A program made the translations under genes and the position numbers. DNA of 64,000 nt from the NCBI GenBank assembly GCA_022496205.1, contig WTXD01000035.1, positions 1 through 64,000 on the forward strand, in the 5' to 3' direction. Under the pieces are notes generated by a model. That model made no database searches. It saw only the letters and a program-made list of their open reading frames with translations, and was not told where the DNA came from. Below are positions 2,080 to 38,648 of this stretch, piece by piece (positions within the stretch are counted from its first letter, which is position 1; the number at the start of each line of letters is the position of its first letter). This DNA comes from Gloeopeniophorella convolvens (taxonomy: Eukaryota > Basidiomycota > Agaricomycetes > Russulales).

Positions 2080-3445
2080 ATGCCTCGGCCTACAGTCTCC
2101 TGGAGCACCTCTACCGCCATGCCGCCCCGCGCACCCTCCCCGGCGCCGTCCCTTGTGCCCTCTGTTATTTCTATCGACACCATCGTACTCCTCAAGGAGT
2201 ATACCGGTCCCCCCGAGTCCCCCATAGAAATCTCCGAGCTCCGGTCCCTGCCCGGCAGTGCCCCGGTCGAGCCGCTCGGGGCAAAAGCAGCCTCCACGAC
2301 CACATCACTAGCTTCGCCATCTGAAGAGCCGGCTTTCACGCATCACAAGACGTACTTCTTTGAAGACGGAAACGTGACGTTCCTTGTACGCCCTTTGCCC
2401 TGCGCTTTGTGGCTGTGACTGGTGAACTGACAGGCGCACCCTAGGTAGACAATATGCTCTACTGCGTGCATAGGTACTTCTTCGCGCGTGATTCAACGTA
2501 CTTTTCGACGCGGCTCGCACGCCTAGGCACCCGTGAGCACGAGACGCTATCCACTATCATCGCCCTCAGCGACGTCAAGCGTGCAGATTTCGAGGCGTTC
2601 TTGTCGATCTTATTTCCTGCGTACGTGGTTTGTCTTCTGTATCTGGGAGTTTTCCAGCTAACCATCGGCTCGTAATATGCAGTGAATTTGATAAGCGCGA
2701 GCTTTCGTATGAACAATGGAGAGGTGTGCTGCACCTCTCCACACTCTGGGGGTTCGCCTCCGCCCGCAGGCTTGCGCTCAATTCACTCGAACCTCCCACT
2801 CCATTTGACCAGCTCCTTCTCGGACGCGCCTATTCCGTGGACCACTACATTGTCCCTGCCCTATCTTCGCTTTGCGAGCGACCGGCGCCTCTCACGCTGG
2901 ATGAAATTCGCCAGATGAGCCTCGAGGACGTCGCGCTGGTCACCACTGTGCGCGAGATCATCCGTACATCCACGCTGGAAATGGCTTCGCCCGACGTATT
3001 CAACATCGTGAAAGCGGCCCAAGCATACCTTTCGCACCCTCGTGCTGACAGCAGCGCCCTATTCGAATTGATCAGGGAGAGCGCTCTCGTCAAGCGTGGA
3101 CCCGGAAACATCAGTATCAGGAACGTTGCCCCCCGCAAAATCGTGCAAGGATCGGACGGGCCAGGTGCTCCCAGTTACCCGAAAGGTGCTGGGCCCGCAA
3201 CAAATATGCGGTCTGCGCGTTCTGCCACCCCGGACCACCCTGTGTCACTGAGGCCATCCAGCGGCGCCAGTGCGCACGTAGTGGCCCAAGGAGTGAAGTT
3301 CGCTGCGGCAAATTTTCCGCCCACGGAGAGGGAAGCGCCGGCGGCCACGGCTGCCATAATGCTGCTCCTCCCGCGGACAAAAAAGCACCTCCTCCCTCAC
3401 CAAAGGCAATCCGGACGCCTCGCGAGCCCCTGCGGATGCTGCTAA
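2080..3445 (+). CDS. BTB-1: BTB/POZ protein, clade A, tail lost to frameshifts
   Basis: Exons are 2080-2385, 2445-2620 and 2683-3445, giving 414 residues. The start MPRPTVSW matches the clade A N-terminus. The BTB core runs from FFEDGNVTFL through CVHRYFFARDS to FEAFLSILFPA. The BACK-like part follows (SYEQWRGVLHLSTLWGFA, then FDQLLLGRAY) with a divergent MSLEDVALVTTVREI. Unlike its neighbours it has no Ala/Glu/Lys coil. The reading frame stops at 3445, but tail sequence related to BTB-4 and BTB-5 continues to about 3731 in the two other frames, including an ADKKAPPPSPKA stretch like the ADQQVPPPAPK of BTB-5. The tail is therefore broken by at least two shifts. The shortened product could still fold as a BTB protein. 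Confidence 0.72.
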
Positions 3446-3731
3446 GACGATGGAACCCCCAGTGGTGCAGTCAGCGTCACAAGCTGCACCGGCCGTTCAG
3501 GATGGTGTCGATGCGGGGGCAAATGCGCCAGTAGGAAATCCTGCGCGTCGGCTTAATCACCTTATACTGGGGAGTGGTGCTCCCACAGCGGATGGATTGA
3601 GCCCTGCACCGCCCACGGACAAAGTCCTTCCAGTCGAACTAGGCAAGGGCGAATACGGTGATCCCTGGACCCGTGGAATGCCCACGCGTAGAAAGAAACT
3701 CAGGAGGTTGAAAGTGGTGAATATAGCGTGA
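3446..3731 (+). pseudogene. Frameshifted C-terminal tail of BTB-1
   Basis: This stretch encodes Pro/Ala-rich sequence ending in an RLNHLILGSG block that corresponds to RLNHIRMESG in BTB-4. It lies in a different frame from exon 3. An undetected intron is the alternative, but two frame changes within 100 bases favour decay. Confidence 0.55.
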
Positions 3732-4808
3732 CCTCGAGGTGAATTAGTTCGATTCTCGTCCGGTGCCACCATCACTAACAAAGGTCATAATCAGTCGCAA
3801 TTTTTGGGTGTGTCTCTTCTTCAGCCCCCGTCGACGTGCCAAGTTCTGGGCAGATTCACAGCTGACTCGCGGAGTCAAATGTGAGGGAGACTGGGGATGG
3901 ATGTCCAAGCCTGGGCCGACGCCCGCCGCGGGTCCTGATGATGAGCGACCGTGCTGCCCAGTGACGATTGGTGTGAAGCACCACGCTATCTTATTTGCCT
4001 TTGGATCCCCATCCCCGTTGTTGGCTGGTACAACTTCCGGAGCTAAACCCCAATATTCAATGTGCTTGCCTTCGACCTTGACAGTCACTGCAGCGTGCAA
4101 TACCTCCTTACCACGCCATCCACTGCTGCGCAAAGTAAGTCGGACAGCATCCATACGTATTGTTCGTCCTGGTGCTGCGCAGTGTATGCTCCCTGTACAT
4201 ATGTATCCTTCAAATGTTTACGATGCACGGTTACTGCGGATGCCGTATCGCAAGTTATTTCCCGTCGCGTATTCACACGTCTTTCCAGATGTCCTGCAGT
4301 CTGCGCCCTATGTATATCTTTTGAACATTGCCCACGCGTGGTTTTCTTCGGCGCCTCATATCGATATGTCCCACCGGGAAAGAGTCGCCCCCTGGAGAGT
4401 TCCTGGAGTGCCTCAGGGTAAGTACAGTGCGCACCCCCGTGTTCGGCCATCGATGTCCTTCGACGCCTCCCGTTACAGCCGAAGTCAAAACCGTCACCAA
4501 TGGATGTTTAATCTCCGCCCAACCCAGATGGAAGGTCCGCCCGTAAGCGAGTCGTTCTGATTTGCCGCGCTCGGCCGGTGGACACACGCGCAAGCGTGAT
4601 TGGACGGATGCTGCCGCTGTGCATATGATGGGTCTCGATCCCCGCCAGAACTCAGCCTTGAACGCAGAAGAGGTCTATCATTGACTTCGGCTGTATTTAT
4701 ATTGATTCGATCCTACTTTATAAGTACGCTGAGTCTCGCAAGCCTCCTGTGAAGTCTCCTTGAAGACCCAACCTTTGCCCGTTGAAACTTCAGCTAGATC
4801 TTGATTCG
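3732..4808. other. Spacer with unresolved minus-strand open frames
   Basis: No gene is supported. On the minus strand, frames at 4154-3744, 4450-4085 and 4593-4273 give non-repetitive peptides that could be exons of one unrecognised gene, but I found no convincing splice set or motif. At 3745-3775 a tRNA T-arm-like sequence (TTCGATT loop, ending in GGTGCCACCA) stands alone without an A box. From about 4680 a badly decayed clade A exon 1 may be present upstream of BTB-2. Confidence 0.4.
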
Positions 4809-6824
4809 ATGGTAGCTCCCAAGAAACATCATCCGACCTTACAGCTAGCGGAAGAACCATTCACACGCCATGAGACATATTTCTTCGAAGATGGAAACGT
4901 CACATTCCTTGTGCGCCTTCTCACGTCCTAACCCGCGAATGGCTGGCTGACCGACAGATCGCTGCACCGCGACACAGGTGAACAATTTGTTGTACTGCGT
5001 GCATCGTTACTTCGCGCGTGACTCGGATGCCTTCTCGGCGGCGTTCAGACGGCTGGACACCCGTGGTCACGAAGAGCTCGACGTGATAATATCTCTCGAC
5101 GATGTCGAACGCGTAGACTTTGAGGCATTCTTGTCGATATTATATCCCAGGTAGGTGATGGCTATCGCGTCTGACAATTGCCCAGCTAACCGCTAGCCCA
5201 TACTGGTATGCAGCCAATTTGACGAAAACAAGCACTCGTACGAACAGTGGAAGGCCGTGCTGCATCTTTCTACGCTCTGGGGATTTGCTTCTGTCCGCCG
5301 ACTCGCCCTCGCGTCACTCAAACCGCCCACGCCATTTGACCAGCTGCTGCTCGGGCGCGCATACTCTGTGGATCATTACATAGTCCCCGCCCTATCTTTG
5401 CTCTGCGAACGCCCTGAACCTCTTACCCTTGGAGAGGTCCGGCAGATGAGCGCCGAGGATGTCGTACTCATCACCTCTGTGCGCGAGAGCATCCGAGGAC
5501 CTATGCTCAATTTCGAACTGTCGGAAATCTCGAACCTCGTGCAGTTGATGCAGTCGCGTCTTCATGGCGAATCTGTGGCAACGGGGGAGGCCAAGGTCGA
5601 AAAGGAAGCCGAAGAACAGACTGCGGAGCAAGAGGGGGCACACAGAGCTGCGATCGCCTCGAACAACGCGTTGAGCGCGACTCCGGAGACTCGAACTTGT
5701 GTTCTTGGTCGCAGTGGCAGGGCTGGGCCCAGAACGTCATCTCCTTCAGTGTCATCCAGGACGTTCACACCTGGTACCCAGTCTCAGCCATTAGAAGCCA
5801 GAAGCCAAAACCTTCGGAGCCCGACGAAAGCCCTTGTAGTGCAGGCCCCTGGACCAAACGTCATGCGGAGCAAAGTGCCACTTCAGAGCCCGAGCATGAG
5901 TCCCCAATCAATCCGACTCCTAGCATCGTTCCCGGTCCAGCAAGTTCTACCCCTCCCGTGTTCCCAATCTCCTGCGTAACGCACGGACCTGATGAGATCA
6001 ATTCCGCCGAATCAGACGGTATGCCACTCCCTGCAGTCTATCCCATCTTTGAACTGATTGCTTGCTGGGCGCACAGGATCGAATGATGCAGCTCCTAGGC
6101 TTTCTATGAGAGATCTTCCTTCCATGGCCCTGGGGGCGCCCTTAATCAAGCTGAGGAGACAATATCAAAGACCTCTGGACGTCCCGAAGCGTCTGATGCA
6201 GACACACTCGACAACGCTACAGTTTCTATCTCCGAGACGTCGAGCGACCAAGTCGCAGGTTCCTATCCTGCTCCCGTTCAAGGCATATTAACAGGTTTAC
6301 CCAAGACTGTGGCACCAGATCTTGAGGCCCAGCTCAGCCAGGAAACTACATCGCACCTGCAACCTGCGTCCGAGGAGACCGAATTCACCGCGACCAGGAT
6401 CCCTCCCCCTGTGGCGGACCAACAAGTGCGTCTTCCCACCCCAAGCAACCAGCTAGGTGCTCCACAGAACTTGGTCAGCATAGCTGAAGTGGCGGAAGCA
6501 CTTTCGCCGCAACCGGTTGGCCCAGAGGTTGCTCCTATCTCGAAGGGCGTCATTGTGGACTCTGTTGGAGGAAAGAAGCCGGCGACGGACGTTCCGCCGA
6601 AGCCTGAGGGTTTCTTTGTGGCAAGCGTCACTTCCGCGAGGAGCTACTCGCGTCCTGCGATACCTGCAGTTGACAAAGCTGCACCACCCGCTATCCCGGA
6701 GACTCATGGAGAACAGGGTAGTGCCAAGAGATTGAGCAAAGCTCAGAAGAGGAGGATGAAGCAAAAGTTGCTGCGGAAAACGGAGACTACCATGTGCAAC
6801 TGTAGTATTTGCCAACGGCAATAA
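4809..6824 (+). CDS. BTB-2: BTB/POZ protein, clade A, N-terminus lost and tail disrupted
   Basis: Exons 4809-4910, 4978-5150 and 5214-5979 read through as 346 residues. The clade A N-terminal segment is missing: the first ATG lies only 34 codons before intron 1, just ahead of the TRHETYFFEDGNVTFL strand. Exon 2 is 173 nt rather than 176, because one Phe codon of the usual RYFFARDS is deleted. The BACK-like region is intact and carries MSAEDVVLITSVRES, the variant also seen in BTB-13. After about 5690 the best tail reading is in another frame and runs, with a possible intron, to the stop at 6824 (SAKRLSKAQKRRMKQK, like the LSKGQKKRLKLR of BTB-5). Either an intron was missed or the tail has shifted. 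No TATA box or normal exon 1 is visible. Confidence 0.55.
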
Positions 6825-6925
6825 ATATCATGCGTTACTAGTTACGTCCTGCACACCTCTCTTATACATGAGGCCCGGTAGGCGCTGGGCCGCATTCGTG
6901 CTTCTCCTGCGCCTCATACATTACG

Positions 6926-7359
6926 ATGTCTCGAGGCTCCGTGATCTTGTCTCCTGGGGTGCCATCCGCGATGACTCGTACTATCCCCGCGTGCTGTCCC
7001 CGATGCCTTCTCTCTCGTCCTCCATTGTCTCCGTTAATTCAATGCTCGCCGATGAGTCTGGCAAGTCTGGCAAGTCTCTCACCGACAACACCGAGCATCG
7101 ACCCCTACCCGGCAAAGTTCCCATCATATCGCTCGACCCGTTGCCAATGCCTGAGAGCGAGCCCAAACCCCTACAGTCAGTGCCAGCGGAGACAGAAAAC
7201 GTGGAGACGATGATCTGGAGAAGGTTTCTAGGAGATTTAGACGAGAACGCGTTTCGGACGGACGGAAAGAGAGCTCGTGATCAGCCCGAAAGAGTCGGCT
7301 CGGAGTCCCGGGCTGGAGAGCGGAGGCGAGAACCGGAAGACGAACCGCTCGAGAGGTGA
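6926..7359 (+). pseudogene. BTB-3: relic of a BTB exon 1
   Basis: Only the N-terminal exon is recognisable. An ATGTCTCGA start is followed after a small indel by LVSWGAIRDD, then PMPSLSSSIVSVNSML. This corresponds to the VSWSAS, then APSPAPSLTPSVISFDS, pattern of clade A. The EDGNITFL strand, exon 2 and exon 3 are absent downstream. The frame stays open to 7359, so a short peptide cannot be excluded, but the lack of the BTB core marks it as a relic. Confidence 0.55.
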
Positions 7360-8276: not shown

Positions 8277-10532
8277 ATGTCTCGCCACATCGTCTCTTGG
8301 AGCGCCTCTGTAGAGTCACAGCCCCGCGCCCAGTCGCCAGCGCGCTCTCTCACACCCTCCGTGATCTCATTCGATTCCTTACTCCTCGACGATGACGTTG
8401 AAACTCCTGGATCCCCCTGTGATGGACTCGAGTCCCAGCCTCCTAGCGACATCCCCGCCATGTCGCTCGATGCACAAACGATAGGAAACCCCAGGAGCGA
8501 CTCACTGCCAGCACCGGTAGCAGCGGAAGACTCAGCATTCACGCGCCATGGGACGTACTTTTTCGAAGACGGTAATATTACATTCCTCGTACGCCCTTCT
8601 TACACGCCGTGATTAGTTCACCTCCTAACTGATTGTTCTATTTTCGCGCCATCGCGACAGGTGGATAATACACTTTTCTGCGTACACCGCTACTTTTTCG
8701 CGCGCGACTCGAGCCACTTCGCAAAGCGACTGGTGCGGCTTGGTGCTCGCGAGAATGAAGCGTTAGAGGCTACCATCTCGCTGAGAGACGTCAAACGCGC
8801 GGACTTTGAGGCGTTTTTGTCAATTCTATATCCTGCGTATGTGGCGCATTGACCCCGAGGGTCTTCCGACCGACTAACACATCCTATCATTTTACAGTGA
8901 GTTTGATGAGCACAGCCGCTCGTATGAGCAGTGGAAGGGCGTACTCCATCTCTCCACACTCTGGGACTTCACCTCTGTCCGTAGGCTCGCCCTCGCATCG
9001 CTCAAGCCGCCCACCCCATTCGACCAGCTCCTCCTCGGCCGCGCCTATTCTGTCGAACATTACATTGTCCCCGCTATGTCTTCTCTCTGTGAGCGTCCAG
9101 AGCCTCTCACACTGGGCGAAGTGCGGCAAATGCGCCCCGAGGACGTCGTGCTCGTCGCCAGCGTGCGCGAGAGCATCCGCGGGGCCGCGTTGGAGATCGA
9201 GCCTTCGGATATTCCGGCCTCGGTGCAGGTGGCGCTGTCGCACCTTCATGGACCTCATGCGGATGATGGCGTACTTTCGTATACCCTTAGAACGGCCAGG
9301 AAGGGAGCTGAGGCCGACGAGCACTTGGTGCGCGAGCGTGCTGCCAACGAGGCGCACGCGAAGACACAAACTGAATCCAGGCAACGCGTGGAGGCCGAGG
9401 TCAGGGCGCATGAGGCCGAAGATGCCAAAGCGTGGGCAGAGGCCGAGGCGAATGCGAACGCCGAAGCTGAAGTCCAGGCCCAGGCTCAGGCGGAAACCAA
9501 GGCTAGGGCTGAGGCAAAGGAGGAAGCTGGAGTAAGCGCCAGGGCTTACGCGGAGGCAAAAGCTAAGGTTGAAGTGGAAGCCAAAGCTTTTGCTGACGCT
9601 AAGCGTGCGAAGAAGGAGGCTACGAAGAAGGCAACTGCCGCGAAGGCCAAGCACAAAGAAGCTAAGGCGATGGCTGAGAAGGCTAAAATCAAAGCTGGGG
9701 CAGAGGCGAAGGCCAAGGCTGAAGCTGAGGAGCAGGCACGCCGCGAGGCCGAAGCAAAGGCTGCCAAAGCCACGTCTGCAGCTACCTTCACACAGTGTGA
9801 ATCGGGCGAGGTCAGGCCCACCAAGTTGGAAAGTGAGTATCTCCCACTGGCAGACATGGCTCTTTGACCGACCCCCTTCCAGAGGCGGCATGCACCAATG
9901 CTGGGCCAGCGAAAGCTGTAGCAAGCATCTCCGCCAAGGTCATCGACAAGGTCCTAGTCCAAGCTATAGGCCAGCTCGCCGAGGCCAGCGCAGGGAAATC
10001 TGAGCCTACACAAACACCGGCCGCGAACGCCGGCGAGAGTGCCGAGCCGGCCGTTGCCCCGCAGCCCCCCAACGCTCCTGCCAACGTGGCCAAGTCAACG
10101 GAGCCCGCCCAGGCAGCGCCAGAATCCCAGCCCTCCAAGGATGACCCTCTCGCTACTTCACAGCCCCCACCTGTCCCTGAGAAGAGGGGCGTCTCCGCGA
10201 CCACGGACGCTGCCCCAGTCACAGACCAACAAGCACCTCTCGCGCTCGAGGACGAGTCGGCTGTCTCGCAGCCCTCGGCGAACGTAGCTCAGGCGACCGA
10301 GACTCCTGCGCCTCAGTTGACGGGCGGGACAACGCCACCCGCCCCGGATGCTGCCGATGCAAAAGCGGGTAGGTCAGCAAGTATACCTGTGCTAAGGCTT
10401 AATCACATTCGAATGGAGAGCGGCTGGGGTCCTTCGACACCTGCCGATGATGTCGCGTCGGGTAGCGAGTACGCCGAACAAAGCGGCACAAAGCAATCCT
10501 TAGAGAACCAGAAGAAGAAATCGAAGAAATAG
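8277..10532 (+). CDS. BTB-4: BTB/POZ-coiled-coil protein, clade A
   Basis: Exons are 8277-8588, 8661-8836, 8898-9832 and 9883-10532. All phases close to give 690 residues. The start MSRHIVSWSAS is the clade A signature. Residues about 90-190 form the BTB domain, split by two introns. Residues about 163-290 are the BACK-like helical part with VVLVASVRESIRG. An Ala/Glu/Lys-rich coil of about 170 residues follows (about 294-463), then a Pro/Ala-rich low-complexity tail. The last intron starts GTGAGT. The TAG at 10530 is premature relative to BTB-5: the frame continues after it with a MAQKGENNSPHTP block matching the AQRGEENGSHTPS of BTB-5. The acidic Gly-Trp end found in BTB-5 and BTB-6 is therefore lost. 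The cellular role is unknown. Confidence 0.88.
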
Positions 10533-11248: not shown

Positions 11249-13882
11249 ATGTCTTGCCATGTCGTCTCTTGGAACGCCTCTGTAGGATCGCAGCCCCGCG
11301 CCTCTCCATCTCCAGCTCCCTCCATCACACCTTCGGTGGTCTCGTCCGACTCTCTACCCCCCGACGACGTCGCCGCATCCCCCGGTGATGGTCCTGAATC
11401 TCAGCCTCCTAGCAATTTCTTTGCCACGCCACTTGACATACTCTCAATGGGACCCCCTGGGAGCGATTGGCGGTTAGCACCAGAGGCCGCGGAAGACCCA
11501 GCATACACGCGCCATGAGACGTACTTCTTTGAAGATGGAAATATCATGTTCCTCGTACGCCATTCTTACACCCATAACTGGTCTATCTCCTGACCGATTT
11601 CCTGAATTCCGTGCTATCGCGACAGGTGGAGGATACGGTTTTCCGCGTACACCGCTACTTCTTCGCGCGCGACTCGAGCCTCTTCGCAGCGCGGCTGTTG
11701 CGACTTGGCCTTCCCGAGTACGAGGCGCCAGAGTTTGTCATCTCGCTGGAAGACGTCAAGTGCGCAGACTTTGAGGCATTTCTGTCGATTCTATATCCTG
11801 CGTACGTGGCGCATCGGCTCGGAAGGTCTTTCGACTAGCTAACACATATCATCGTTGTACAGTGAATTTGATGAACACGACCGCTCGTATGAGCAGTGGA
11901 AGGGCGTGCTCCATCTCTCCACGCTCTGGGGTTTCGCCTCCGTCCGCAGGCTCGCCCTCGCGTCGCTCAAGCCACCGACTCCGTTCGATCAACTTCTCCT
12001 CGGCCGCGCGTATGCCGTCGAACACTACATCATCCCCGCCCTCTCTTCTCTCTGCGAGAGGCCGGAGCCTCTTACACTCGGCGAGGTGCGGCAGATGCGA
12101 CCCGAGGACGTCGTGCTGGTTGCCAGCGTGCGCGAGAGCATCCGCGGGGCCACGCTCCAGATCGATCCTTCGGACATCCCGGCATCGGTGCAGGTGGCTC
12201 TGTCTCATCTCTCTGGGCCTCACACGGACGGCAGCGCACTTCTGCACACCCTGAGGGCGGCCAGGAAGGAGACTGAGGCCGATGAGAGCCTGGAGCGCGA
12301 GCGTGTTGCCAACGAGGCGCGTGCGGCGCGTGCGAAGACACGAGCTGAGGTCAGGCAACGCATGGAGGCCGACGCCAGGGCGCATAAGGATGCCAAAGAA
12401 GCCAATGCGCGGGTGGAGGCCGAGGCGGTCGCGAACGTCAAAGCTGAGGTTCAGCTCGAAACTCAGGTGGAAACCAAGACAGAGGCACAGACAGAGGAAG
12501 CCGGAGCAAGCGCCAAGGCTTACGCGGAAGCAGAAGCTAAGGCCGAATCGGGGGCCAAAGCTCTCGCAGACGCTAAGCGTGCAAAGAACGAGGCTACGAA
12601 GAAGGCAACTGCCGCGAAGGCCAAGTACAAAGAAGCTAAGGCGATGGTCGAGAAAGCCAAAGCCAAAGTCGAGGCAGAATCCAAGGCCAAGGCTGACGCT
12701 GAGGTAAGTCTGACGTGAAGGCTGAAGCTAGGGCTGAAGCTGAGATGCAGGCACACCGCGAGGCCGAAGCAAAGGCTGCCGTCGAGGACGCCAAAGCTGC
12801 GTCTGCAGCTACCCTCGTACAGTGTGGACCTGGCGAGGCCAGGCCCACCGAGCCGGAAGGTGGGTATCTGATACTGGCAGACGTGGTTCCTTGACCAACC
12901 CCCTTCCAGAGACGGCAGGCAACAATGACGGACAGGCGAAAGCTATAGCAGGTGTCCCCGCCAATGTCACCGATAAGGCCCCGAACCAAGCCAAAGGCCT
13001 GCCTGCCGAGGCCAGCGCAGAGAAGCCCGAGCCTACTCCAGCACCGCTTGCGAACGCCGGCAGGAGTACCCAACCACCCGCTGCCCTGCAGCTCACCGAT
13101 ACTTCTGCGAACGTGGCCAAGTCGACACAGCCCGCCCAGGCAGTACCAGAGTCCCAGCCTGCCAATGATAACGCTCCTCCTTCTGCAGACGCTTCGCAGC
13201 CTCCACGTGTCCCTGAGAAGAATGGTATTTCCGCAGCCGCGGACACTGTCCCAGCCGCAGACCAACAAGTGCCTCCTCCCGCGCCGAAGGACGAGCCGGC
13301 CGTCTTGCAAACGTCAGCGGACACAGCTCAGGCGGCCGGGACCCTTATGCCTCAGTTGACGACAGAGGCGGCACCAGCTGCTCCGGATACTGCCTATGCA
13401 AAAGCGGTGGACCAGCAAGCAAACCTACGCTAAGGTTTGACCACCTTCGAATGGAGAGCGACGCCTCCGCGACGAGCGGCTCGAGCCCTTCGACACCTGC
13501 TGATGATATCACGTGGTCGAAAGTCGAGGATAGCGAGGATGGCGAACAAAGCGGCATGAAGCAACTTTCGAAAGGCCAGAAGAAGAGACTGAAGCTAAGG
13601 CAGCGGAAGGCTCAGAGGGGTGAGGAGAATGGTTCACATACTCCGTCGGCGTCCGGGGCCACCACGAGTAGGGTAGTAAATGTGGCCGCACAGGGCCTTA
13701 AAGCCCCTTCTGTTGCCGCTGTCGATGTTCCTGTTGAGGAGGGCGATGGTGAACTCGTAGACTCCAAGGTGGGAAATAGTGGCGACGAGCCGGTGATCGT
13801 CGACAGCCCTCCTTCCACTGACGAAGCGAAGGTTAGCAATGGCTTCTTTGATGACGACGATGACGACGACGGGTGGTTGTGA
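11249..13882 (+). CDS. BTB-5: BTB/POZ-coiled-coil protein, clade A, with a late frameshift
   Basis: Exons are 11249-11554, 11626-11801, 11863-12703, 12751-12859 and 12910 onward. Read directly, the protein is 651 residues and stops at 13433. Compared with BTB-4 and BTB-6, one base is missing between about 13405 and 13432. If that base were present, the frame would continue through FDHLRMESD and LSKGQKKRLKLR to an acidic end, a D7-GWL, at 13882. The 47-nt intron 12704-12750 lies inside the coil where BTB-4 has plain coding sequence. Without it the frame meets TGA, so it is either a newly created intron or a mutated exon. The coil is about 165 residues. The shift could be a sequencing error or real decay. 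Confidence 0.7.
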
Positions 13883-22006: not shown

Positions 22007-22412
22007 TGTGAGTTCGACTCACTCAATCTCTCGGACGAGCAATGGAAAGCTATCTTTCATCTCCCCATGCTATTGGGATTCTCTCTGTCCGCAAGCTTGC
22101 ATTGGTCTGGATTCCCCTACTTCATTCGACTGACTCCTGCCTGGGCGCACAGTGATACTCAATGGACCATCGGTACATCCTGCCTGCTCTGTCTACCTTA
22201 TGCTTATGCTGGAGGCCCGATTCTCTCACCCTATGGAAAGTCTGCCAGCTGAACCCATCTGATGTCGTGTCCATTACCGCTCTGTGTGAACGCGTACGCC
22301 CCCTCGCAGTTGAGATCCGCATCAGGAGACATCGAAGACCTCGTGCAGTCGGCGACCCCACACATACAACTGTTCGAGTGCAGCATAATCTTATTCGGAG
22401 TCGAGCGCGGTG
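22007..22412 (+). pseudogene. BTB-8: relic of a BTB exon 3
   Basis: The peptide EFDSLNLSDEQWKAIFHLP followed by LLGFS corresponds to the start of exon 3 in intact copies. After a frame change near 22160, the reading HRYILPALSTLC, then PDSLTLWKVCQLNPSDVVSI, matches the second half of the BACK-like region. At least one frameshift and many substitutions are present. Neither exon 2 nor the coil is recognisable. Confidence 0.7.
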
Positions 22413-22650
22413 ACTATCATAGCGTGTACCATTATACTTACTTCTAAATATACTGATCATTGACAATCACATCCCATCTGAGGTACCGCTGCTTTGGGTG
22501 CCGTCCGCGTGCCGCGTCAGCCTGAGGGCGTCAGATCAACTTCGTGGTCCAACCGTCCAGGGTGCCGGCACGAGAGCGAAGCGCCCGTGCATTCGTACAT
22601 AATTACCAGCACGCCACCGTGCCGCGACACGCCCCGTGGTATTTGCCCCC

Positions 22651-26963: not shown

Positions 26964-28905
26964 ATGTCTCCCAATATCATCTCCTGGAGAACCTCCGCGG
27001 ACGACTACACCAATATCTTATCGGCATCCCCAATCTCATCCCGATCTGCTACACCATCTGTGGTTTCCATCGACTCCATGGTTCCCGGAAGAGAGGCCAT
27101 GGCTTGGCCCGATGCGCGAGAGGCTCAGCCAGCTAGCGAGTCCCAAGTGAAGTCACCGCCGAGCGCAGTTGTGTTATCGGAGCCGAAGGCGCCTATCAGC
27201 TTGCGCCCTGTGCAGGACTCGGACTCGCAGCCATTTGTGCGCCACGACACGTACTATTTCGAAGACGGCAACATTACGTTCCTCGTGCGTGCCGCATTGC
27301 ATCCTACATTTCCTCTGATCGATGCCCACAGAACCGCCCATTGATTGCAGGTGGATGGCGTGTTGTACTGCGTGCATCGCTATTTCTTCGCGCGCGACTC
27401 GATCTATTTCTCCACGAGGTTTGCGCAGCTCAATATCCGAGAGCACGAGGCGCTTCCTACGCTCATATCTCTGGGCGACATCAAACGTGGCGATTTCGAG
27501 GCATTCTTGAACATTCTATACCCTCCGTAAGATCATGTACTTCCTCAACCTGGGAAGGGCGGGACTGATCACCGCTACCGTGTGTAGCGAATTCGATGGA
27601 CGCGACCTCTCGTACGAGCAATGGAAGGCTGTACTCCACCTGTCCACACTCTGGGGCTTCCCCTCCGTCCGCGGGCTCGCCCTCGCGTCGCTCAAACCCC
27701 CCACTCCATTCGACCAGCTCCTCCTCGGCCGTGCGTATGCCGTCGAGCACTACATCGTCCCTGCCCTGTCTTCTCTCTGCGAGCGTCCAGAGCCTCTCAC
27801 CTTGGGCGAGGTGCGGCAGATGCGCTCCGAAGACGTTGTGTTGGTCGCCAGCGTGCGGGAGAGCATCCGCGGGGCCGTGCTGGAGATCGATCCTTCGGAC
27901 ATCCCAGCCTCCGTGCGGGTGGCGCTGTCGCACCTGTCTGTGCCTCACTCGGACAGCGGCGCGCTTCTGCGTACCCTGAGGACAGCTAGGATGGGAGCTG
28001 AGGCTGCCGAGCGCGAGGAGAGTGAGCGTGCCACCAACAAGGTGCGCGCAAAGGTACAGGCTGCAGCGAGGCGACGCGTGGATGCTGAGCTCATGGCGCT
28101 GGGGGAGTACGAAGAGGCCATGGCAAGGGTGGAGGCGGAGGCCAAAGCCAAGGCAGACGCTGAAGCGAAGGCAGCAGCTGAAGAAAAGGCTAAGGCCGAG
28201 GCCGAGGCCATGGCCAAGGCCAAAGCTGAGGAGGCGAAGCGCGCGGCTGAACAGGCCGCCTACGAGAGGGCCAGAGCTATTGCCAAAGCCAAAGCTTTCG
28301 AGGAAGCCAGAGCGAAGGCCGGAGCCGAGCGAGCGGAGGCGGAGGGGAAAATGAAGGCCAAAGCTGAGGCCGAAGCTATGGCGAAGGTAGACTCAGTGGC
28401 AGCCAAAGCGAAGGCCGAGACTGAAGCAACTGGGGCGGCCGCGAGCAATGCGCCGCCGGCTCGGAGCGCTCCAATGAACCCAGCTACTAATCGAGGATCT
28501 GGCGGCGGCGGCTGGTTCAACAAGTTATCAGCAGCGTCCAGCACAGTGTCAACTATCATCAGTGACGATTCTCAGCCGACAGACGATAGAGGTCCTATGT
28601 CATCAAGATCTAACGGCAACCCCCTGTGGGGTCCAGATCCGTGGGCCAAACGCCAACAGACTGCCCCTCCACTCACTCCCGCCGACGCTCCTGTGACGAA
28701 CATTGCTCGGGGTGCTGGCAGTCCTGCGCCCGGCCAGCGCACGCTGGCTCCAAACCGTCTCGCTTCACGCGCACCACGCCCCACCGCCCCCACGCCCTCG
28801 CCCGCCCCAACTCAGCCGTCCATCAGTTTTGCATCTTCGGCTACCCTCGTACAGCGCGAGTCTGAATCCGGCGAGGCTGCAGAACCCGGGGCCCCAGCAT
28901 TGTAA
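26964..28905 (+). CDS. BTB-11: BTB/POZ-coiled-coil protein, clade B, with PWAKRQQ tail
   Basis: Exons are 26964-27284, 27351-27526 and 27588-28905, giving 604 residues. MSPNIISWRTS starts the protein. The BTB and BACK-like regions are intact (VVLVASVRESIRG). The coil is about 145 residues. The tail has SGGGGWFNKLS, SQPTDDRGPMSS, then NPLWGPDPWAKRQQ, closely related to BTB-6 and BTB-7 although the N-terminus is clade B. The last intron of clade A is not used and the protein ends EPGAPAL. It is the best-preserved clade B member. Confidence 0.89.
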
Positions 28906-29579: not shown

Positions 29580-31160
29580 ATGTCTCCCAATATCATCTCC
29601 TGGAGGGCCTCCGCAGACGACTACACCAATATCTCATCGACACCCCCAATCTCGTCCCAATCTGCTACACCATCCGTAGTCTCCATCGACTCCATAGTTC
29701 CTGGAAGAGAGATCATGGCTTGGCCCAACGCGCGAGAGGTCCAGCCAGCCAGCGAGTCCCAGGTGACGGTATCACCGGGCGCGGCTATGTTATCTGAACC
29801 CAAGGCGCCTATCGGCTTGCGCCCTGCGCAGGACGAGGAACCACCATTTGTGCACCACGACACATACTATTTCGAAGATGGCAACATCACATTCCTCGTG
29901 CGTGCCGCCCCGCATCTTACGTTTCCTTCAATCGATACCCACCGGACCGCCCATTGATTGCAGGTGGATGGAGTGCTGTACTGCGTACACCGCTATTTCT
30001 TCGCGCGCGACTCGGCGTACTTCTCCACGAGGTTCGCGGAACTCAACGTCCGAGAGCACGAGGCGCTTCCTACGCTCATATCCCTGGGCGATGTTGAGCG
30101 TGTCGATTTCGAGGCATTCCTGAGCATTCTGTACCCTCCGTAAGCGCGCGTGCTTTCTGGATCTGGGGGGAGCCGGGCTGATCGCCGCCGTTTACGTGCA
30201 TCATGCAGCGAATTCGACGGGCGCGACCTCTCGTACGAGCAATGGAAGGCCGTGCTCCACCTGTCGACGCTCTGGGGATTTGCCTCGGTCCGCAGACTCG
30301 CGCTCGCGTCGCTCAAGCCACCCACCCCATTCGACCAGCTCCTCCTCGGACGCGCCTATTCTGTCGAGAACTACATCGTCCCCGCCCTGTCTTCTCTCTG
30401 TGAGCGGCCGGAGCCTCTCACCCTGGGCGAGGTGCGGCAGATGCGCCCAGAGGACGTCGTTCTCGTCGCCAGTGTGCGCGAGAGCATCCGCGGGGCCACG
30501 CTGGAGATCAAATCATCAGACATCCCGGCCTCGGTGCAGGTAGCGCTGTCCCACCTTTCTGTGACTCATACGGATGGCGGCGCGCTTCTGCATACCCTGA
30601 AGGCAGCTAGGATCGGGGCTGAGGCTGCCGAGCGCGATGAGCGCGAGCCTGCCACCAATGAGGTGCGCGCAAAGGTACAGGCCGCAGCGAGGCAGCGCGT
30701 AGAGGCCGAGCTCATGGCGCTGAAGGAGTATGAAGAAACCATGGCGAGGGTGGAGGCGGAGGCGAAGGCTGAGGCGGAAGCTAGGGTTAGGGCTGAAGCT
30801 GAAGCTGAAGCTCGGGCTAAGGCCGAGGCCGAGGCCGAGGCGAAAGATAGAGCCGAGGCCGAGGCCAAGGCCAAGAAAGCAGCCGATGCGAAGGCGAAGC
30901 AAGAGGCTGCCAAGGCGAAGATGATGCATATGAGAGCGGAGGCGAAAGCAAAGGCGGAGGCGGAGGCAAAGGCAAAGGCTGACGCCGAGGCAAAAGCCAA
31001 GGCCAAGGCCGATGCCGAAGCTAGCGAGGAACAAGCAAAGCGCGAGGCCGAAGCAAAGGCCGCCTGGGAGAGAGCCAAAGCTGAAGCTGAGGCAAAGGCC
31101 AAAGCTTATGTCGAAGCCAAAACTCTTGTGGAAGGGTTGAAAGCAAAGGCCGACTCCTGA
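29580..31160 (+). CDS. BTB-12: BTB/POZ-coiled-coil protein, clade B, short
   Basis: Exons are 29580-29897, 29964-30139 and 30209-31160, giving 481 residues. It has MSPNIISWRAS, the BTB core with ARDSAYFSTRFAELNVR, and an intact BACK-like part. The coil is about 185 residues of dense AEAKAKAEAE repeats and ends LKAKADS. The frame stops at the same general place as BTB-10, with no tail motif. Downstream bases to about 31210 still resemble the BTB-10 3' flank (GAAGGCCATTGGAGCTGAT, then GATCTGAGATC). Confidence 0.87.
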
Positions 31161-31639: not shown

Positions 31640-33409
31640 ATGTCTCCCAATATCATCTCCTGGAGGGCCTCCGCGTCGGACGCCTACACCAGCATCTCAT
31701 CGACATCCCCGGTCTCGTCCCAATCTGCTACACCATCCGTAGTCTCCATCGACTCCATAGTTCCTGAAAGAGAGATCATGGCTTGGCCCAACACGCGAGA
31801 GCTCCAGCCAGTCAGCGAGTCGCCCGTGAAGCTACCACCGAACACGGCTACACTATCAGAGGCCAAGGCGCCGATCGGCTTGCGCCCTGTGCAGGACGAG
31901 GAGCAGCCATTTATGCGCCACGACACGTACTATTTCGAAGACGGTAACATCACATTCCTCGTGCGTGTCACCTCGCATGCCACGTTTCCTTCGATCGATG
32001 CTCATCGGACTGCCCTTGATTGCAGGTGGACGGCACGCTGTACTGCGTGCACCGATATTTCTTCGCACGCGATTCGATTTACTTCTCCACGAGGTTTACT
32101 CAGCTCAACATCCGAGAGCATGATGCGCTTCCTACGCTCATATCCCTGGGTGACATCAAGCGTGGTGATTTCGAGGCATTCCTGAGCATTCTGTATCCTC
32201 TGTAAGCGCACGTCCTATCCGGATCAGAGAAGAGCGACACTGATCGAAGCTTGCCGTTCGCGTGCATGCAGCGAATTCGACGGGCGCGACCTCTCGTACG
32301 AGCAATGGAAGGCCGTGCTCCACCTGTCTACGCTCTGGGGCTTCGCCTCCGTCCGCAGGCTCGCCCTCGCGTCGCTCAAGCCACCGACCCCGTTCGACCA
32401 GCTCCTCCTCGGGCGCGCCTATTCCGTCGAGCACTACATTGTTCCTGCTCTATCTTCGCTCTGTGAGCGACCTGAACCCCTCACTCTGGGAGAGGTGCGG
32501 CAGATGAGTGCGGAAGACGTCGTGCTCGTCACCACCATACGCGAGAGCATCCGGGGAGGCGCGCTCTTGGTCCGGCCGTCCGACATTCCGGGCTTCGTGC
32601 AGACTGCACTATCACATATCCCGAAACTTTACAAGGAGCACTCACATCTCTCCGAAGAGGCCGACAGGAGAACCGAACAGAAACAAGAAGCAGATGCTGA
32701 CGTACGAGCGAAAAAAGTGAAACTGACGGAGGCGAAAGCTGAGGATGTGGCCGCGGAAGCAGCTGGGGAGGAAGCTGGAGTCGAGGCCGTAGCCCAGGCC
32801 GAATCCGTGCCCCTCAGTAAAGTTGCGAAGAAAAGACAAATGATGAAGGCCAGGACACAGGCAAGAGCTGAAGCCGAGGTGGGAGCCGAGAAGGTCGAAG
32901 TTGAGGTGGCCAAGGCGGGAAACTCAGCGGCTGAGATGGGTATGACAGCTGAAGATGGAAGCGCTATAGGGGTCAAGTCGACCGAAGCTAGGCAACGGGC
33001 CCGAGAACAATTCATTAGCGCCTCGGCGTTGGTGGTGATGACCGAAGCTGAAGCAAATGCGTTCATGGAAAAAGCAAAGGCTGAAGCGGCCGCGGCGGCC
33101 AGGGTCAGGGAAGAAGCAGAGGCGGAGGCAGCGGCAAAGAAGATCGAACTCGAGAGGGCGGAACGCGATGCGAAGCAAAGAGCAGCCAAGAACGTCGCTA
33201 GTGTTTCAAACCCGGCTCGAACTGGGGGTTCTGATGCGCCGAGACCTCCAGCCTCGAGTCCGGCAGCGTCAAACTTGTTCTGGTGGTTGCGGGAGCTTTC
33301 CGAGTCAGTGTCGCCAACAGGGACAACCGGTGAGCCCTCCAATATCGGCAACCCTTGGGCTTCTGGTAGTACGTCGACGAAACGGCAGACAAAACCACCT
33401 CCATCCTGA
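31640..33409 (+). CDS. BTB-13: BTB/POZ protein, clade B, mosaic exon 3
   Basis: Exons are 31640-31960, 32026-32201 and 32272-33409, giving 544 residues. The N-terminus (MSPNIISWRAS) and the first 75 or so residues of exon 3 are typical clade B. From MSAEDVVLVTTIRES onward the protein resembles BTB-1 and BTB-2 rather than its neighbours (which have VASVRES). The coil of about 190 residues is less repetitive (EEAGVEAVAQAES, KKRQMMKARTQARAEAE). The tail FWWLRELSESVS, NPWASGSTSTKRQTK is a variant of the PWAKRQQ segment. The protein looks like a recombinant between lineages. Confidence 0.86.
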
Positions 33410-33765
33410 CTCATTCCAAGTCGATCGCGGTAATGAGTACTAATGATGCGCCCTTGTATGTTTTTTTACCAATATGGAATGCAACGTTATCCTCTGTGTG
33501 CGCTGCTATGGAGAGTCTTGGACCTTGAGTGCATCTTCCTGTCCCCGAACTTTGGTGAGGGACCAATAGTAGGCGCGGCCGCTCACACATCCAATAGCAG
33601 AGGATGAGACGCGTTTCAAGTGCGCGGAACCAGTAAAAGGAGATAGAGCCAGTGGTAGCGCAAGAGCGCGCCAGTATGTCAATCAGTCAACTAGCAGCGG
33701 GAGTTGAGTCGGTGAGGGCAGGTGAAGCAGTACTGGCAGAGGTCTATATATAGTAGTCAATTCGC
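33400..33765 (+). repeat. Duplicated 3' flank, copy 1 (after BTB-13)
   Basis: This block matches 36197-36535 after BTB-14: CACCCTTGTATG-type starts, a GTGAGGGACC segment, CAATCAGTCA, and GAGGGCAGGTGAAGC near the end. The gene and its 3' flank were duplicated as one unit. Confidence 0.75.
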
Positions 33766-34411: not shown

Positions 34412-36196
34412 ATGTCTCCAAATATCATATCCTGGAGGGCCTCCGCGGACAACTACACAGTATCTCATCGGCATCCCGGTCTCGTCCCAATCTGCTGCAC
34501 CATCCGTAGTATCGATAGACTCCATAGGTCCCGGAGGAGAGACCATGGATTGGCCTCACGCACGAGAGCCCCGGCCAGCCACTGGCGAGTCCCAAGTGAA
34601 GTTACCACTGAGCGTGGTTACATTATCGGAGCCCAAGGCGCCTATCAGCTTGCGCCCTGCGCAGGACGAGGGGCCACCGTCTGTGCGCCACGACACGTAC
34701 TATTTCGAAGATGGCAACATTACATTCCTTGTGCGTGCCGCCCTACATGCCACGTTTCCTCCAATCGATACCTACCGGACTGCCTATTGATTGCAGGTGG
34801 ACGGCGCGCTGTACTGCGTGCACCGCTATTTCTTCGCGCGCGACTCGGTGTACTTCTCCACAAAGTTCGCGCGGCTCAATATTCGGAGCACGAGGCGCTC
34901 GATACGCTCATATCTCTGGGCGACGTTGAGCGTGTCGATTTCGAGGCGTTCCTGAGTATCTTGTACCCTCCGTAAGCGCGTGCGCTTTCTGGGTCTGGGA
35001 AGAGCGAGGCTAATCGTTGCCGTTGCCGTGCATGTAGCGAATTCGATGGGCATAACCTATCTTACGAACAGTGGAAGGCAGTGCTCCACCTGTCTACGCT
35101 CTGGGGATTCGCCTCCATCCGCAGACTCGCGCTCGCATCGCTCAAGCCGCCCACCCCGTTCGATCAGCTCCTCCTCGGCCGCGCCTATTCTGTCGAACAT
35201 TACATCGTCCCCGCCCTGTCTTCTCTCTGCGAGCGGCCGGAGCCTCTCACCCTGGGCGAGGTGCGGCAGATGCGCCCGAGGACTTCGTGCTCGTCGCCAG
35301 TGTGCGCGAGAGCATCCGCGGGGCCGTGCTGGAGATCGAGCATTCGGACATCACAGCCTCAGTGCAGGTGGCGCTGTCGCACCTTTCCGTATCTCACACG
35401 GATGGCAGCGCGCTTCTGCATACCCTTACGACAGCTAAGATGAGAGCCGAGGCCGCCGAGCTTGAGGAGTGCGAACGTGCCGTCAGCGAGGCGTGCGCAG
35501 AGGCAGAGGCTGAAGCGAGACAGCGCGCAGAGGCCGAGTCCAGGGCGCTGGGGAGTATGAAGAGGCCATGACGAGGGTGGAGGCGGAGGAGGCGGAAGCT
35601 AAGGCCGGGGCCAAAGCTCAAGCTCAAGTTCAGGCCAAGACCGAGGCCGAGGCAAAGACTGAACCCGAGGCTGAGGTCGAGGCCAAGGAGGCAGCCGATG
35701 CGAAGGCAGCTGCGCAGGAAGCTTTGGAGGCGGCGGCAAAGGCGGCGGCTGAAGCGATGGCTAAGGCTGACGCCGAGGTGAGAGCCGCTAGAGCTGAGGC
35801 CAAGGAAGCGGCGGACGCAAAGGCCAGGGCCGACGCGGCGGCCGAAGCTGGAGCAGAGGCCATAGCGAAGGCCATAGCGAAGGTGACGGAGCAGGAGATT
35901 TCATGAGTAGGGCTGCTGCTAAGTGTGCGCGAGTGAAGGCCAAAGCATATGCCGAAGCCCAAACCTTCTTTGCGGAAGCCAAAGCAAAGGCCGAGGCCGA
36001 GCGAGCGGAGGTAGAGGCGACTAAAGACCAGAGCTGAAACATGAGACCCAGTAAGAACTAACTAGGGTGTCCGGGACTTACAGCAGCGGGGGATTCTCAG
36101 TCGGTATCGCCAGGAGTGAACCGTCCAACGCCACTGGCAACTCTTGGGCTTCGGATAGTACCTCGACGAACGGTAGCGAAGCTGACAGTCCCTGCT
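34412..36196 (+). pseudogene. BTB-14: frameshifted BTB/POZ gene, clade B
   Basis: All parts are present but broken. Exon 1 (34412-34730) is 319 nt, with a shift near 34460 soon after MSPNIISWRASADNYT. Exon 2 (34797-34971) is 175 nt instead of 176, with one base lost near AATATTCGGAGCACG. Exon 3 starts at 35038 and loses one base near 35275, before GAGGACTTCGTG. The coil then changes frame again near 35555 and ends with TGA at 35904. A tail remnant like BTB-13 (GGCTTCGGATAGTACCTCG) remains near 36150. At least four independent lesions rule out a single sequencing error. Confidence 0.88.
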
Positions 36197-36535
36197 TCAT
36201 CCTGACCCATTCCAAGATCGCAAAAATAGGCAGTAGATGCACCCTTGTATGTTTCGTACCGACATGGAACGCAATATTACTCCATTGCATGCACCATTTC
36301 GAGGAGTGTTGGCCTTGGGTGCATATTCTCGCCTCCGGGCCTTTGTGAGGGACCGATGGTATGCGAGGCCGCTCACGTATCCAATCACGCGCCTGAGTGC
36401 GTGCGCCGTGGGACCATTGAAAGAGAATAGAGCTGGTAGTAGCGCATGAGCAGGCCAGCATGCCAATCAGTCAGCCAGCAGCAGGAGTCGAGTCGGCGAG
36501 GGCAGGTGAAGCCCGGCGGCAGAGGTCGGAAACTC
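36197..36535 (+). repeat. Duplicated 3' flank, copy 2 (after BTB-14)
   Basis: This is the counterpart of 33400-33765. It is more diverged in the middle but collinear over its length. Confidence 0.75.
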
Positions 36536-37082
36536 GGGAGACTTTCGATGGCGAGTTCGAGCTAGTTCGATTAATCTCGTAGCACCGAGATGCGATATTT
36601 TCGTGTACATCCGTGTTTCGCTCCGCCCACGTCGCTGTCAGAGTCGGAGCAATCTGACTCTAGAATTATTGTGACGACAGTGCACAACGACAAATCTGTG
36701 AAAACCTGTTCCGTTCAGTCCTTCCAAGGAGTCACTAGTCACTGACCACGCAATAATGATAGAAGTTCAACGGGCCATTGAACTGCCATGGCTCGAACAA
36801 AGAGCTCGAAGGCGCGGATGGGCCTGGATGGGCACACGACGACGACTAAGTATGTAATCGAGCAAGCCGCAGCCCCCGAGGCCCGAGGGCCCGAAGCGTC
36901 GACTTGGGGACAACGAGGCTGTTGCCAACGGGCGCTCCGACGCTGCGAGCACTGGACTCGGACGTCATCCCACCGCGTTTCCTTGTCATCCTTTTGTCCA
37001 GTCCGCTTGAACCTTTGCGCCCGCACGCGAGGCTGACGACCGCGCGTTCCCCGCGCCCCCAAATCCTCTGTCTCTCCCTACA
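36536..37082. other. Spacer BTB-14/BTB-15
   Basis: No gene is recognised. It contains the promoter region of BTB-15. Neither the clade A nor the clade B upstream box was found. Confidence 0.5.
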
Positions 37083-38648
37083 ATGGCATCCCACATCGTG
37101 TCCTGGGGAGGCGGCGTGCGCTGCGCCTCGCCGGCCTTATCTGTCCTCTCCATCGCCTCGTTCGAGTCCTCTCTCACGGACACCCACCTCACGTCGTCCA
37201 GCGCCCTCGATGCCCTACGGGCGAAGCACCCGGCGCTGGACGACCTGAAGCTGCCCGCAGACGAGCGGGACGGCTTTGAAGAGCCATTCGAGCGCCACGA
37301 TAAGTGGTTCTTCAAGGATGGCAACATCACGTTCCTAGTGCGCATGTCCTTTGATCGTGATTGGCATGTGCTGACGAGGCGCAGGTCGACGGCATGCTGT
37401 ACTGCGTGCACCGATACTTCTTCTCCCGCGACTCGGAATACTTCGCAAACCGGTTCGACCAGCTCGGCATACGCGAGCACGAGGCCCTGTCCACCGTCAT
37501 ATCCCTATCGGACGTCGAGCGGAAGGACTTTGATGCCTTCCTCTCCGTCATATACCCCGAGTACGCCCCCGAGCCAATCCACCCCGTCGTACCTCGACTA
37601 ATGTGTACACTATTACAGCGACTTTGATGAGCGCGCGCTTGCATTCGAGCAGTGGAAGTCCGTGCTGCGCCTCGCCACGCGCTGGGGCTTTGCCTCCCTG
37701 CGCAAGCTCGCGATCAAGTCGATCGCACCGCCGACGCCGCACGACCGGCTCCTGCTCGGGCGCGCGTACGACGTTGACCCGTGGGTGCTCCCCGCGCTCT
37801 CGGCGCTGTGCGCGCGCGAGGTGCCGCTGAGCCTGCGCGAGGCGCGCCAGATGCGCGTCGAGGACATCGTGCTCGTCGCCACCGTGCGCGAGGACATCCG
37901 CAAGCCGACGCTGCAGGTCGACCCCGCCGAGATCCCGCACTGCGTGCAGGCCGCGCTGGACGGGATGCGCGCGCTCGAGGCGGGCAGCGGCGCGTTCGCG
38001 CGGCCTGATGCGGAATCCAGCGCGGCGGCGAGCGAGTCGGGCGGCAGCGCCGAGGCGGACCCGCTTGTGGCGCCCGCTGCTGCTACTACGAATGCGGAGA
38101 AAGAGGGCGACGACGACGCCGCCACAATGTCCCCTGTGGACACGAGGCAGGTGGCGGGCTCGGACAGCGACGAGAAGGCCCGGGTCGCCTCGCCAGCGGG
38201 GTCGAACGAAGGCGAGGAATGGCAGTCCGCCAATGCGAGCCAGCGCGAGGAGGCGGAGGAGCAGCCGCGGTCGGCCAGCGCGCGGGCTATGCCGCAGGGC
38301 ACCCGGGCGACGATGATGGCCATGGTACTCGGCAAGGAGCAGCGGGCGCGGATGAAGACGCGCCAGACGCAGATCGAGGCGCTGCGGCGGGCGCTCGCGG
38401 CGAAGGAGAGGCAACTCGAAGAGGACACCACGGACCAGGAGCCTCCGGTGGTCGCGCGCACTGTTCCCATTCCCCGTGCGAAAGGACAGCCCGCGGCCGA
38501 CGCGGCGGAGAACAGGGTGTCTTTCGCTTCGTCGTCTGGCACGCTTGTTGCTCAGAACGAGGAAGCGCCTCAGGCTCAAGCCCCCAGGCTTCCTGCCACC
38601 TACTACGACGAGGATGAACTTGATCGCGACAGTGGTTGGCGCTGGTAA
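37083..38648 (+). CDS. BTB-15: divergent BTB/POZ protein without the long A/E/K coil
   Basis: Exons are 37083-37337, 37385-37560 and 37619-38648, giving 486 residues. The exon structure is that of the array: exon 2 is again 176 nt with the same phases. The N-terminus MASHIVSWGGG resembles clade A. The BTB core is diverged (HDKWFFKDGNITFL, VDGMLYCVHRYFFSRDSEYF, LSVIYPD), as is the BACK-like part (RLATRWGFASLRKLAIKS, VLVATVREDIRK). The long coil is replaced by an acidic low-complexity region and a short helix (MKTRQTQIEALRRALAAKE). It ends DRDSGWRW, the acidic-Trp end also seen in BTB-5 and BTB-6. It may be the closest to the ancestral gene from which the array expanded; this is inference. Confidence 0.88.

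Follow-up and report, generated by a model that had tools for sequence, protein, structure and literature searches.

A tandem array of related BTB genes spans 36.5 kb of a 64,000-nucleotide stretch of Gloeopeniophorella convolvens (Russulales) DNA, hereafter the window, with a conserved head followed in most modelled copies by a rod rich in Ala, Glu, and Lys (A/E/K) and a variable tail. We propose, with somewhat less than even confidence, that it encodes BTB-BACK-like adaptors or scaffolds whose helical spacer and tail can be exchanged. The head, under strong purifying selection, would most likely self-associate; like the structurally similar heads of SPOP and KBTBD proteins, it may also serve as a docking site for a ubiquitin ligase of the Cul3 type. 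In most copies, a near-neutral, Ala-rich single helix of ~120–290 residues would space the tail from the head, spanning roughly 18–43 nm (the α-helix rises 0.15 nm per residue), and the tail, probably disordered for the most part, may use short recurring motifs as a partner site. Copies would be born and lost via tandem duplication, with rod and tail varying, decaying, and apparently passing from one copy to another; a single head type would thereby carry many spacers and tails.

Profile searches over the six frames of the window gave matches to one or more of exon 1, exon 2, and the exon-3 head at 15 sites between 2080, the first ATG, and ~38.6 kb, where 38648 is the last stop, and the reported profile matches all lie on the plus strand. 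This bears out both the fifteen same-strand units or relics and the limits given by an earlier, sequence-only reading. Thirteen units retain exon 2/3 heads, one is an exon-1 relic, and one a head relic (Table 1). An exon 1 (phase 0), an exon 2 of exactly 176 nt, an exon 3 (phase 2), and GT-AG sites recur in 11 of the 13 head-bearing units; the other two are U2, with its shorter exon 2, and the frameshifted U14. Two deposited G. convolvens proteins derive from the array. P0010 (BC834DRAFT_892163) agrees with the 173-nt exon 2 of U2, its residues 1–280 of 567 matching the U2 exons exactly (the exon trace covers those 280), and P0005 (BC834DRAFT_958893) follows the splicing of U4 from an internal ATG (U4 residue 62). 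The suggested plan of three to four exons holds with three modelled in most units and a fourth backed by P0005 for U4; with U4 as model, U6 may possess an extra exon reaching 17184. The best own-genome protein match to each exon-3 head ranges from E 9e-117 to 3e-41 (7e-7 for U8), far beyond chance. The array of related genes is real. Neither the matches listed for the protein of one exon-3 head nor those listed for the U15 stretch include a second near-identical copy of the array.

Table 1. Units of the BTB array, in window coordinates.
Unit	Description	Position	Strand	Exons or other details
U1	BTB gene without A/E/K rod	2080–3445	+	exons 2080–2385, 2445–2620, 2683–3445
U2	Rodless BTB gene	4809–6824	+	173-nt exon 2 (4978–5150), shortened exon 1
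U3	Exon-1 relic	6943–7180 (end approximate)	+	profile positions 4–81, E 3e-8
U4	Four-exon rod unit	8277–10532	+	exons 8277–8588, 8661–8836, 8898–9832, 9883–10532
U5	Rod unit	11249–12718	+	exons 11249–11554, 11626–11801, 11863–12718
U6	Rod unit	14358–16327	+	exons 14358–14660, 14728–14903, 14965–16327
U7	Rod unit	17728–20158	+	exons 17728–18039, 18112–18287, 18349–20158
U8	Decayed exon-3 head relic with stop	22007–22317	+	profile match
U9	Rod unit	22651–24406	+	exons 22651–22962, 23029–23204, 23266–24406
U10	Rod unit	24841–26480	+	exons 24841–25158, 25221–25396, 25457–26480
U11	Rod unit	26964–28905	+	exons 26964–27284, 27351–27526, 27588–28905
U12	Rod unit	29580–31160	+	exons 29580–29897, 29964–30139, 30209–31160
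U13	Weaker diverged rod	31640–33409	+	exons 31640–31960, 32026–32201, 32272–33409
U14	Pseudogene of rod unit	34412–36037 (limits approximate)	+	frameshifts in exons 1, 2, 3
U15	Rodless diverged unit	37083–38648	+	exons 37083–37337, 37385–37560, 37619–38648

The damaged units differ in what they keep. The profile search of the window frames found no head match between U3 and U4. U8 matches the profile at ~22007–22290, its main piece at E 1.5e-11, and exons 1, 2, and 3 of U14 are each matched in two frames or broken off, as judged partly by eye.

The A/E/K partner noted earlier is present in nine of 11 modelled units (U4–U7 and U9–U13, weakly in U13), as open rods of 119–287 residues by a 60% A/E/K test, with the longest in U7. 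It is absent from U1 and U15 by this test and from U2 as judged via P0010, and a similar stretch is visible in the reading frames of U14. Its description as a coiled coil is not upheld: hydrophobicity carries no 3.5-residue signal in any of 15 rods (z at 3.5 from −0.9 to 1.6), and a canonical coiled coil is rejected, with one exception in a measure restricted to I/L/V/M/F (U5, z 2.8). Alanines two residues apart are enriched 1.4- to 2.0-fold in all 15 rods, eight of which have an Ala z greater than 3 at period 2, and the net charge lies between −6 and +6. Structure prediction returned uninterrupted charge-rich helices of 129 and 156 residues, and the rod is predicted to form one long single α-helix (SAH-like). 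The rod DNA of U7, U9, U10, and U12 consists in part of imperfect tandem units of 6–42 nt. Such units favor a different account, in which mostly neutral birth-and-death shaped the array, copies and rods drift, the rod is a by-product of GCN-RAR hexanucleotide-like repeat growth behind a BTB gene, and rod and tail variation plays no part in partner choice. A GCN-RAR-like repeat would also encode the two-residue Ala spacing. We regard this account as rather unlikely; the open rods kept in the array speak against it, as do the long rods of Lactarius proteins described below.

Tail motifs recur between units, with QRAADK, WFNK, and DPWAKRQ in U6, WLSK and DPWAKRQ in U7, and WFNK and DPWAKRQ in U11. 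Some are found again in Lactarius proteins, and a related rod-tail lies behind a second, distant BTB head. A basic SKxQKKR-type motif occurs in four of 83 database matches and, within the window, behind U2 and U5. The tail comparison gave no match for U10 or U12 and one broken by two stops for U9, and a tail-only protein search over 343 candidates gave no match at E ≤ 0.01. Neutral drift would explain such unmatched or broken tails, together with the one pseudogene and two relics, and also a neighboring BTB locus with two copies on one haplotype contig and one on the other. The U1 tail possibly continues beyond an intron, and a tail-like sequence in a different frame lies downstream of U5.

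Substitution rates separate the parts of these genes. dN/dS is mostly ~0.1 in the head, ~0.2–0.6 in exon 1, and, where dS is unsaturated, ~0.2–0.5 in rod and tail; purifying selection is strong on heads and much less so on rods and tails. Rods and tails are therefore variable, as anticipated, but the tail is not simply fast-changing, given its recurring motifs. Moreover, among array units of the same group, every rod/tail dS that can be estimated exceeds the corresponding dN, contrary to neutral drift. Recent gene conversion as the source of the conserved heads is unsupported among array units, with dS within groups of 0.38–0.70 in the head versus 0.22–0.92 in exon 1.

The family was thought to be lineage-specific, and this holds for the expansion of its heads, not for its architecture. 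In the head tree, 13 of 14 G. convolvens heads form one clade (97/92), with U15 falling outside the clade of the other array heads, and 15 of 16 Lactarius heads form their own (100/100), so copies multiplied independently; judged from these sequences, the family underwent separate expansions in two or more lineages of Russulales (Gloeopeniophorella and Lactarius). The Lactarius paralogues (e.g., P0018, P0041, and P0048) have heads 54–67% identical to that of U11 and several matches per contig. A long A/E/K stretch is present in 16 of 46 Lactarius matches, and some Lactarius proteins carry tail motifs of the array; motifs shared across the divide between the two head clades speak against drift. 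Athelia homologues (37–42% identity) fall outside the Russulales heads and include no long rod in seven proteins, although P0081 meets the cut in three windows. BTB genes abound in mushroom-forming fungi, and to our knowledge a role has been assigned to few of them; the present family is a compact, testable case, with one head and many spacers and tails in tandem. One article (PMC8893723) names BTB/POZ genes among those for protein ubiquitination in fungi with complex multicellularity, and the main text of a Lactarius transcriptome study makes no mention of BTB (PMC8417538). No description of the architecture was found in literature titles and abstract openings, which covered few subscription journals.

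The conserved BTB head with BACK-like helices is borne out by the predicted fold, in which residues ~29–202 of P0005 form a BTB domain followed by 3-box/BACK-like helices. Pfam placed BTB/POZ (PF00651), the domain of other agaricomycete BTB/POZ proteins, above its cut-off in all three proteins scanned (24.7–37.5 bits versus 20.5); its BACK model gave no match in them at E ≤ 1, but the fold match does cover the BACK region. The best E in a PDB sequence search was only 0.28. Among the 50 fold matches listed, the longest (156–169 residues) are SPOP, KBTBD2/4, A55, and NPR1, and the predicted head resembles SPOP and further Cul3 adaptors most closely. Cul3 recruitment would fit this modelled fold, and the genome has three loci of the cullin family. 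The array proteins share the BTB and 3-box/BACK-like helices predicted in P0005 with BTB-BACK Cul3 adaptors (SPOP, KBTBD2/KBTBD4, vaccinia A55), but differ in their A/E/K helix and disordered tail; in the three scanned proteins, Pfam reported no MATH, Kelch, NACHT, HET, WD40, or DNA-binding domain. The BTB-only folds ZBTB8A and Miz1/BCL6 equal the Cul3 adaptors in Z (about 10), and this, with the basic motif in some tails, could suit scaffolds that work without Cul3, their heads oligomerizing and their rods projecting tails in a transcriptional or cytoskeletal role. We consider such scaffolds improbable, as the longest fold matches listed include no transcription factors and Pfam reported no DNA-binding domain in the three proteins scanned.

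Contig pairs of the single assembly, inferred to be alleles, add a comparison between haplotypes. At two of three doubly assembled loci, a near-identical head is followed by a rod and tail ~10–13% apart plus indels. In gene A of C168/C80, 0 of 312 positions differ in exon 1 and 2 of 289 in the exon-3 head, versus 85 of 669 in the rod, with 294 gap columns, and 49 of 372 after it; gene conversion possibly accounts for the near-identical head. In C344/C84, 4 of 1530 positions differ before the rod and none in its first 268 nt, versus 110 of 1147 in the remaining rod and 48 of 436 after it, plus gaps. Because the tails, which are not repeats, have diverged as much as the rods, slippage alone is an insufficient explanation. 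Polymorphism exceeds that of flanking sequence in these two pairs, but the contrast is suggestive only, because the same genome has other divergent blocks without rods (two 1-kb C80/C168 blocks at 2–4% and C50/C279 at 3.6–14.5%).

Both pairs could reflect a polymorphic self/non-self recognition family whose rod/tail alleles differ between the nuclei of one individual, with diversity maintained. In Podospora HNWD/NLR allorecognition genes, a conserved head is joined to a repeat part that varies among alleles and is exchanged between paralogues; the likeness is in the idea only, and NACHT, HET, and WD40 were not reported in the three proteins scanned. The mechanisms of basidiomycete somatic incompatibility, moreover, are called completely unknown in a passage of a 2021 article (PMC8229728). 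A recognition role is nevertheless very improbable: the rods of C122/C168c show no difference, the rod-free blocks deprive the contrast of uniqueness, and allelism is inferred within one assembly. Least credible is a mobile rod-plus-tail module swapped among BTB heads at separate loci and maintained as a polymorphism between the nuclei of one individual, its rod and tail alleles serving as the identity label of a basidiomycete recognition system made from ubiquitin-ligase adaptors. For the adaptor or scaffold reading, if rod and tail select partners, swapping them would reveal how ubiquitin adaptors become diverse in fungi. Should the haplotype differences prove general in populations, these would be candidate loci for basidiomycete somatic incompatibility.

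An apparent BTB enrichment among doubly assembled regions reflects clustering, since second contigs number five for BTB versus six for kinase genes (by-eye pair counts were 11 in 56 BTB rows and eight among ~150 kinase matches listed). The sequences compared include no single recent donor of the divergent haplotype block; elsewhere in the genome, the best donor-like segments reach ~93% identity at most, and which of them matches best shifts along the rod.

Two profiles made from modelled units, one for exon 1 and one for the exon 2/3 head (the predicted BTB plus BACK-like region), were compared with six frames of the window and mark 15 places from 2080 to ~38.6 kb, every reported match lying on the forward strand. 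This bears out the 15 same-strand units or relics (U1–U15, numbered 5′ to 3′) claimed in the sequence-only reading. Exon 2 and exon 3 heads are present at 13 of the 15 places. The proposed plan of a 176-nt exon 2 with fixed intron phases holds for 11 of the 13 head units, which have GT-AG introns in phases 0 and 2; it fails for U2, whose exon 2 measures 173 nt, and for U14, a pseudogene with frameshifts. At two units the splicing matches deposited Gloeopeniophorella convolvens protein models, themselves predictions: P0005 equals U4 over 413 residues to the third intron, followed by one junction residue and an exact exon 4, and P0010 equals U2 over the first 280 of 567 residues, the end of the splice model used. 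A third deposited protein, P0006, departs from the splice model at C168c, a related locus, by a single residue close to the first junction (Q in place of L at residue 102). The array contig, WTXD01000035.1, is 261,484 bases long; since the window starts at its first base, the array begins 2 kb from the contig end and may be longer than these 15 units. A 75% identical stretch recurs 3′ of U13 and before U15, so duplications may have taken in downstream sequence.

Coordinates and places of features of the BTB family
Feature	Location	Strand	Description
U3	~6943	+	exon-1 relic (profile match)
U8	~22007-22290	+	head relic (profile match)
Shared stretch	33513-33744 and ~36304-36527
L059	C344:213200-216800		distant BTB head, long linker, array-like rod and tail
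L060	C84:7900-11500		distant BTB head, long linker, array-like rod and tail
Copy-number difference	L058 4012-6921 vs L057 (C279:144945-145471)
Tail matches	U6, U7, U9, U11, C80, C122, three places on C168, and two pieces each on C344 and C84

An Ala/Glu/Lys (A/E/K) rod, scored as 60% A/E/K in 30-residue windows, follows the head in nine of the 11 modelled units; it is missing from U1 and U15, and also from U2 as represented by P0010. The coiled coil envisaged for it is not supported: across 15 rods (nine from the array, three from related genes on contigs C80 and C168, three from Lactarius), hydrophobicity shows no heptad periodicity, with z between −0.9 and 1.6. All 15 are enriched in Ala at lag 2 (1.41- to 1.97-fold), and the period-2 Ala signal has z > 3 in eight. 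A single helix is predicted by AlphaFold2 in both P0005 (129 residues) and P0018 (156 residues). Imperfect tandem units occur in the rod DNA of U7, U9, U10, and U12.

NG86 estimates from 24 pairwise comparisons, each inside one of two groups of rod units and with the C80A/C168A pair kept apart, gave dN 0.02–0.10 and dS 0.38–0.70 for the head, and dN 0.10–0.24 and dS 0.22–0.92 for exon 1. Values for rod and tail, dN 0.18–0.81 and dS from 0.37 to saturation, depend on an uncertain alignment.

Related genes lie on C168, C80, and C122 of the same genome, and on C344 and C84, where the exon-3 head is 28% identical. Stretches of C168 recur on C80 and C122, which are probably haplotype contigs. Between C168 and C80, gene A differs at 1/299 positions over the 300 bases upstream, at none from exon 1 through to the end of intron 2, at 2/289 in the exon-3 head, 6/90 in the linker, 85/669 plus 294 gap columns in the rod, and 49/372 after it; both models are open (646 and 724 residues). 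Beyond, the spacer differs at 45/892, gene B at 30/1311, and the 3′ flank at 5/975. C344 and C84 differ at 4/1530 positions before the rod, none in its first 268 nt, 110/1147 plus 109 gap columns in its remainder, and 48/436 plus 53 gap columns after it; the C344 frame is open for 1145 aa, and the C84 frame shifts close to the rod end. The third pair, C122/C168c, showed no differences in the rod region. In a sliding comparison, some rod segments match another locus better than the partner contig, consistent with exchange between loci or, alternatively, with an effect of repeats.

Haplotype divergence in this genome is patchy: two further 1-kb blocks of C80 and C168 differ by 2–4%, and C50 differs from C279:143-150 kb by 3.6–14.5% across ~8 kb, where the BTB genes are rodless. 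Because of this patchiness, because rods are repeats, and because collapsed assembly could exaggerate the likeness of the flanks, the excess of rod/tail over head and flank divergence between contig pairs is suggestive only. Beside an upstream reading frame that is identical on both contigs, the C50 region has two rodless BTB genes on one contig versus one on its partner, a difference that suggests copy number is still turning over.

Thirteen places in the genome match the tail query, each preceded by a BTB head as far as inspected. By loose patterns devised for this analysis, QRAADK occurs in the window in U6, WFNK or WLSK in U6, U7, and U11, and DPWAK in U6, U7, U9, and U11. At least one of four patterns is found in 12 of 83 database matches (eight Lactarius, two G. 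convolvens, one Russula, one other), and two or more of three rod-tail motifs in four (P0012, P0018, P0046, P0051).

The array protein resembles BTB-BACK adaptors in predicted fold and is a candidate Cul3 adaptor. We tentatively read the array proteins as adaptors or scaffolds with a helical spacer and an exchangeable tail, a reading slightly short of an even chance that we place ahead of neutral drift, the less likely account of the array. The BTB-rod-tail architecture was not found described in the literature searched (titles and abstract starts, mostly outside subscription journals). BTB/POZ proteins are named among ubiquitination genes in a passage on complex multicellular fungi (PMC8893723). 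For Aspergillus fumigatus incompatibility, variation between allele classes is reported to reach only several hundred base pairs past coding regions (PMC11138114), and the mechanisms of somatic incompatibility are described as still unknown (PMC8229728).

The 83 protein matches, tallied by genus from protein names, comprise 46 Lactarius, eight Russula, four Lactifluus, one Multifurca, seven Athelia, three G. convolvens, and 14 others. Rods, here scored as over 40 windows of 40 residues at 60% A/E/K, are present in 20: 16 from Lactarius (10 species), two from G. convolvens, and two others. None of the eight Russula, four Lactifluus, one Multifurca, and seven Athelia matches has one, weak evidence of absence because only 7,998 candidates were scored. 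Several Lactarius matches lie on contigs of equal length (seven of L. sanguifluus, for example), which suggests BTB arrays there too. In a tree of 43 heads, whose bootstrap had not settled, one clade (97/92) takes 13 of 14 G. convolvens heads, leaving U15 outside, and another (100/100) takes 15 of 16 Lactarius heads, leaving P0009 outside. The tree covers heads other than those of U2, U14, the second C168 locus, and P0015, P0028, P0033, and P0082, four of 33 database proteins tried that the extraction pattern missed. The Russulales ancestor has been dated to 88 million years (PMC7550596).

Three Lactarius proteins (P0001, P0002, P0004) carry two or three consecutive BTB heads, and are either genuine multi-head proteins or adjoining units fused by gene prediction. 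P0068 and P0070, two BTB proteins of Russulaceae, include Pfam domains of the eIF4G type, PF12152 in the Lactarius sanguifluus protein and PF02854 in that of Russula earlei, possibly a recurrent BTB-eIF4G fusion or merged gene models.
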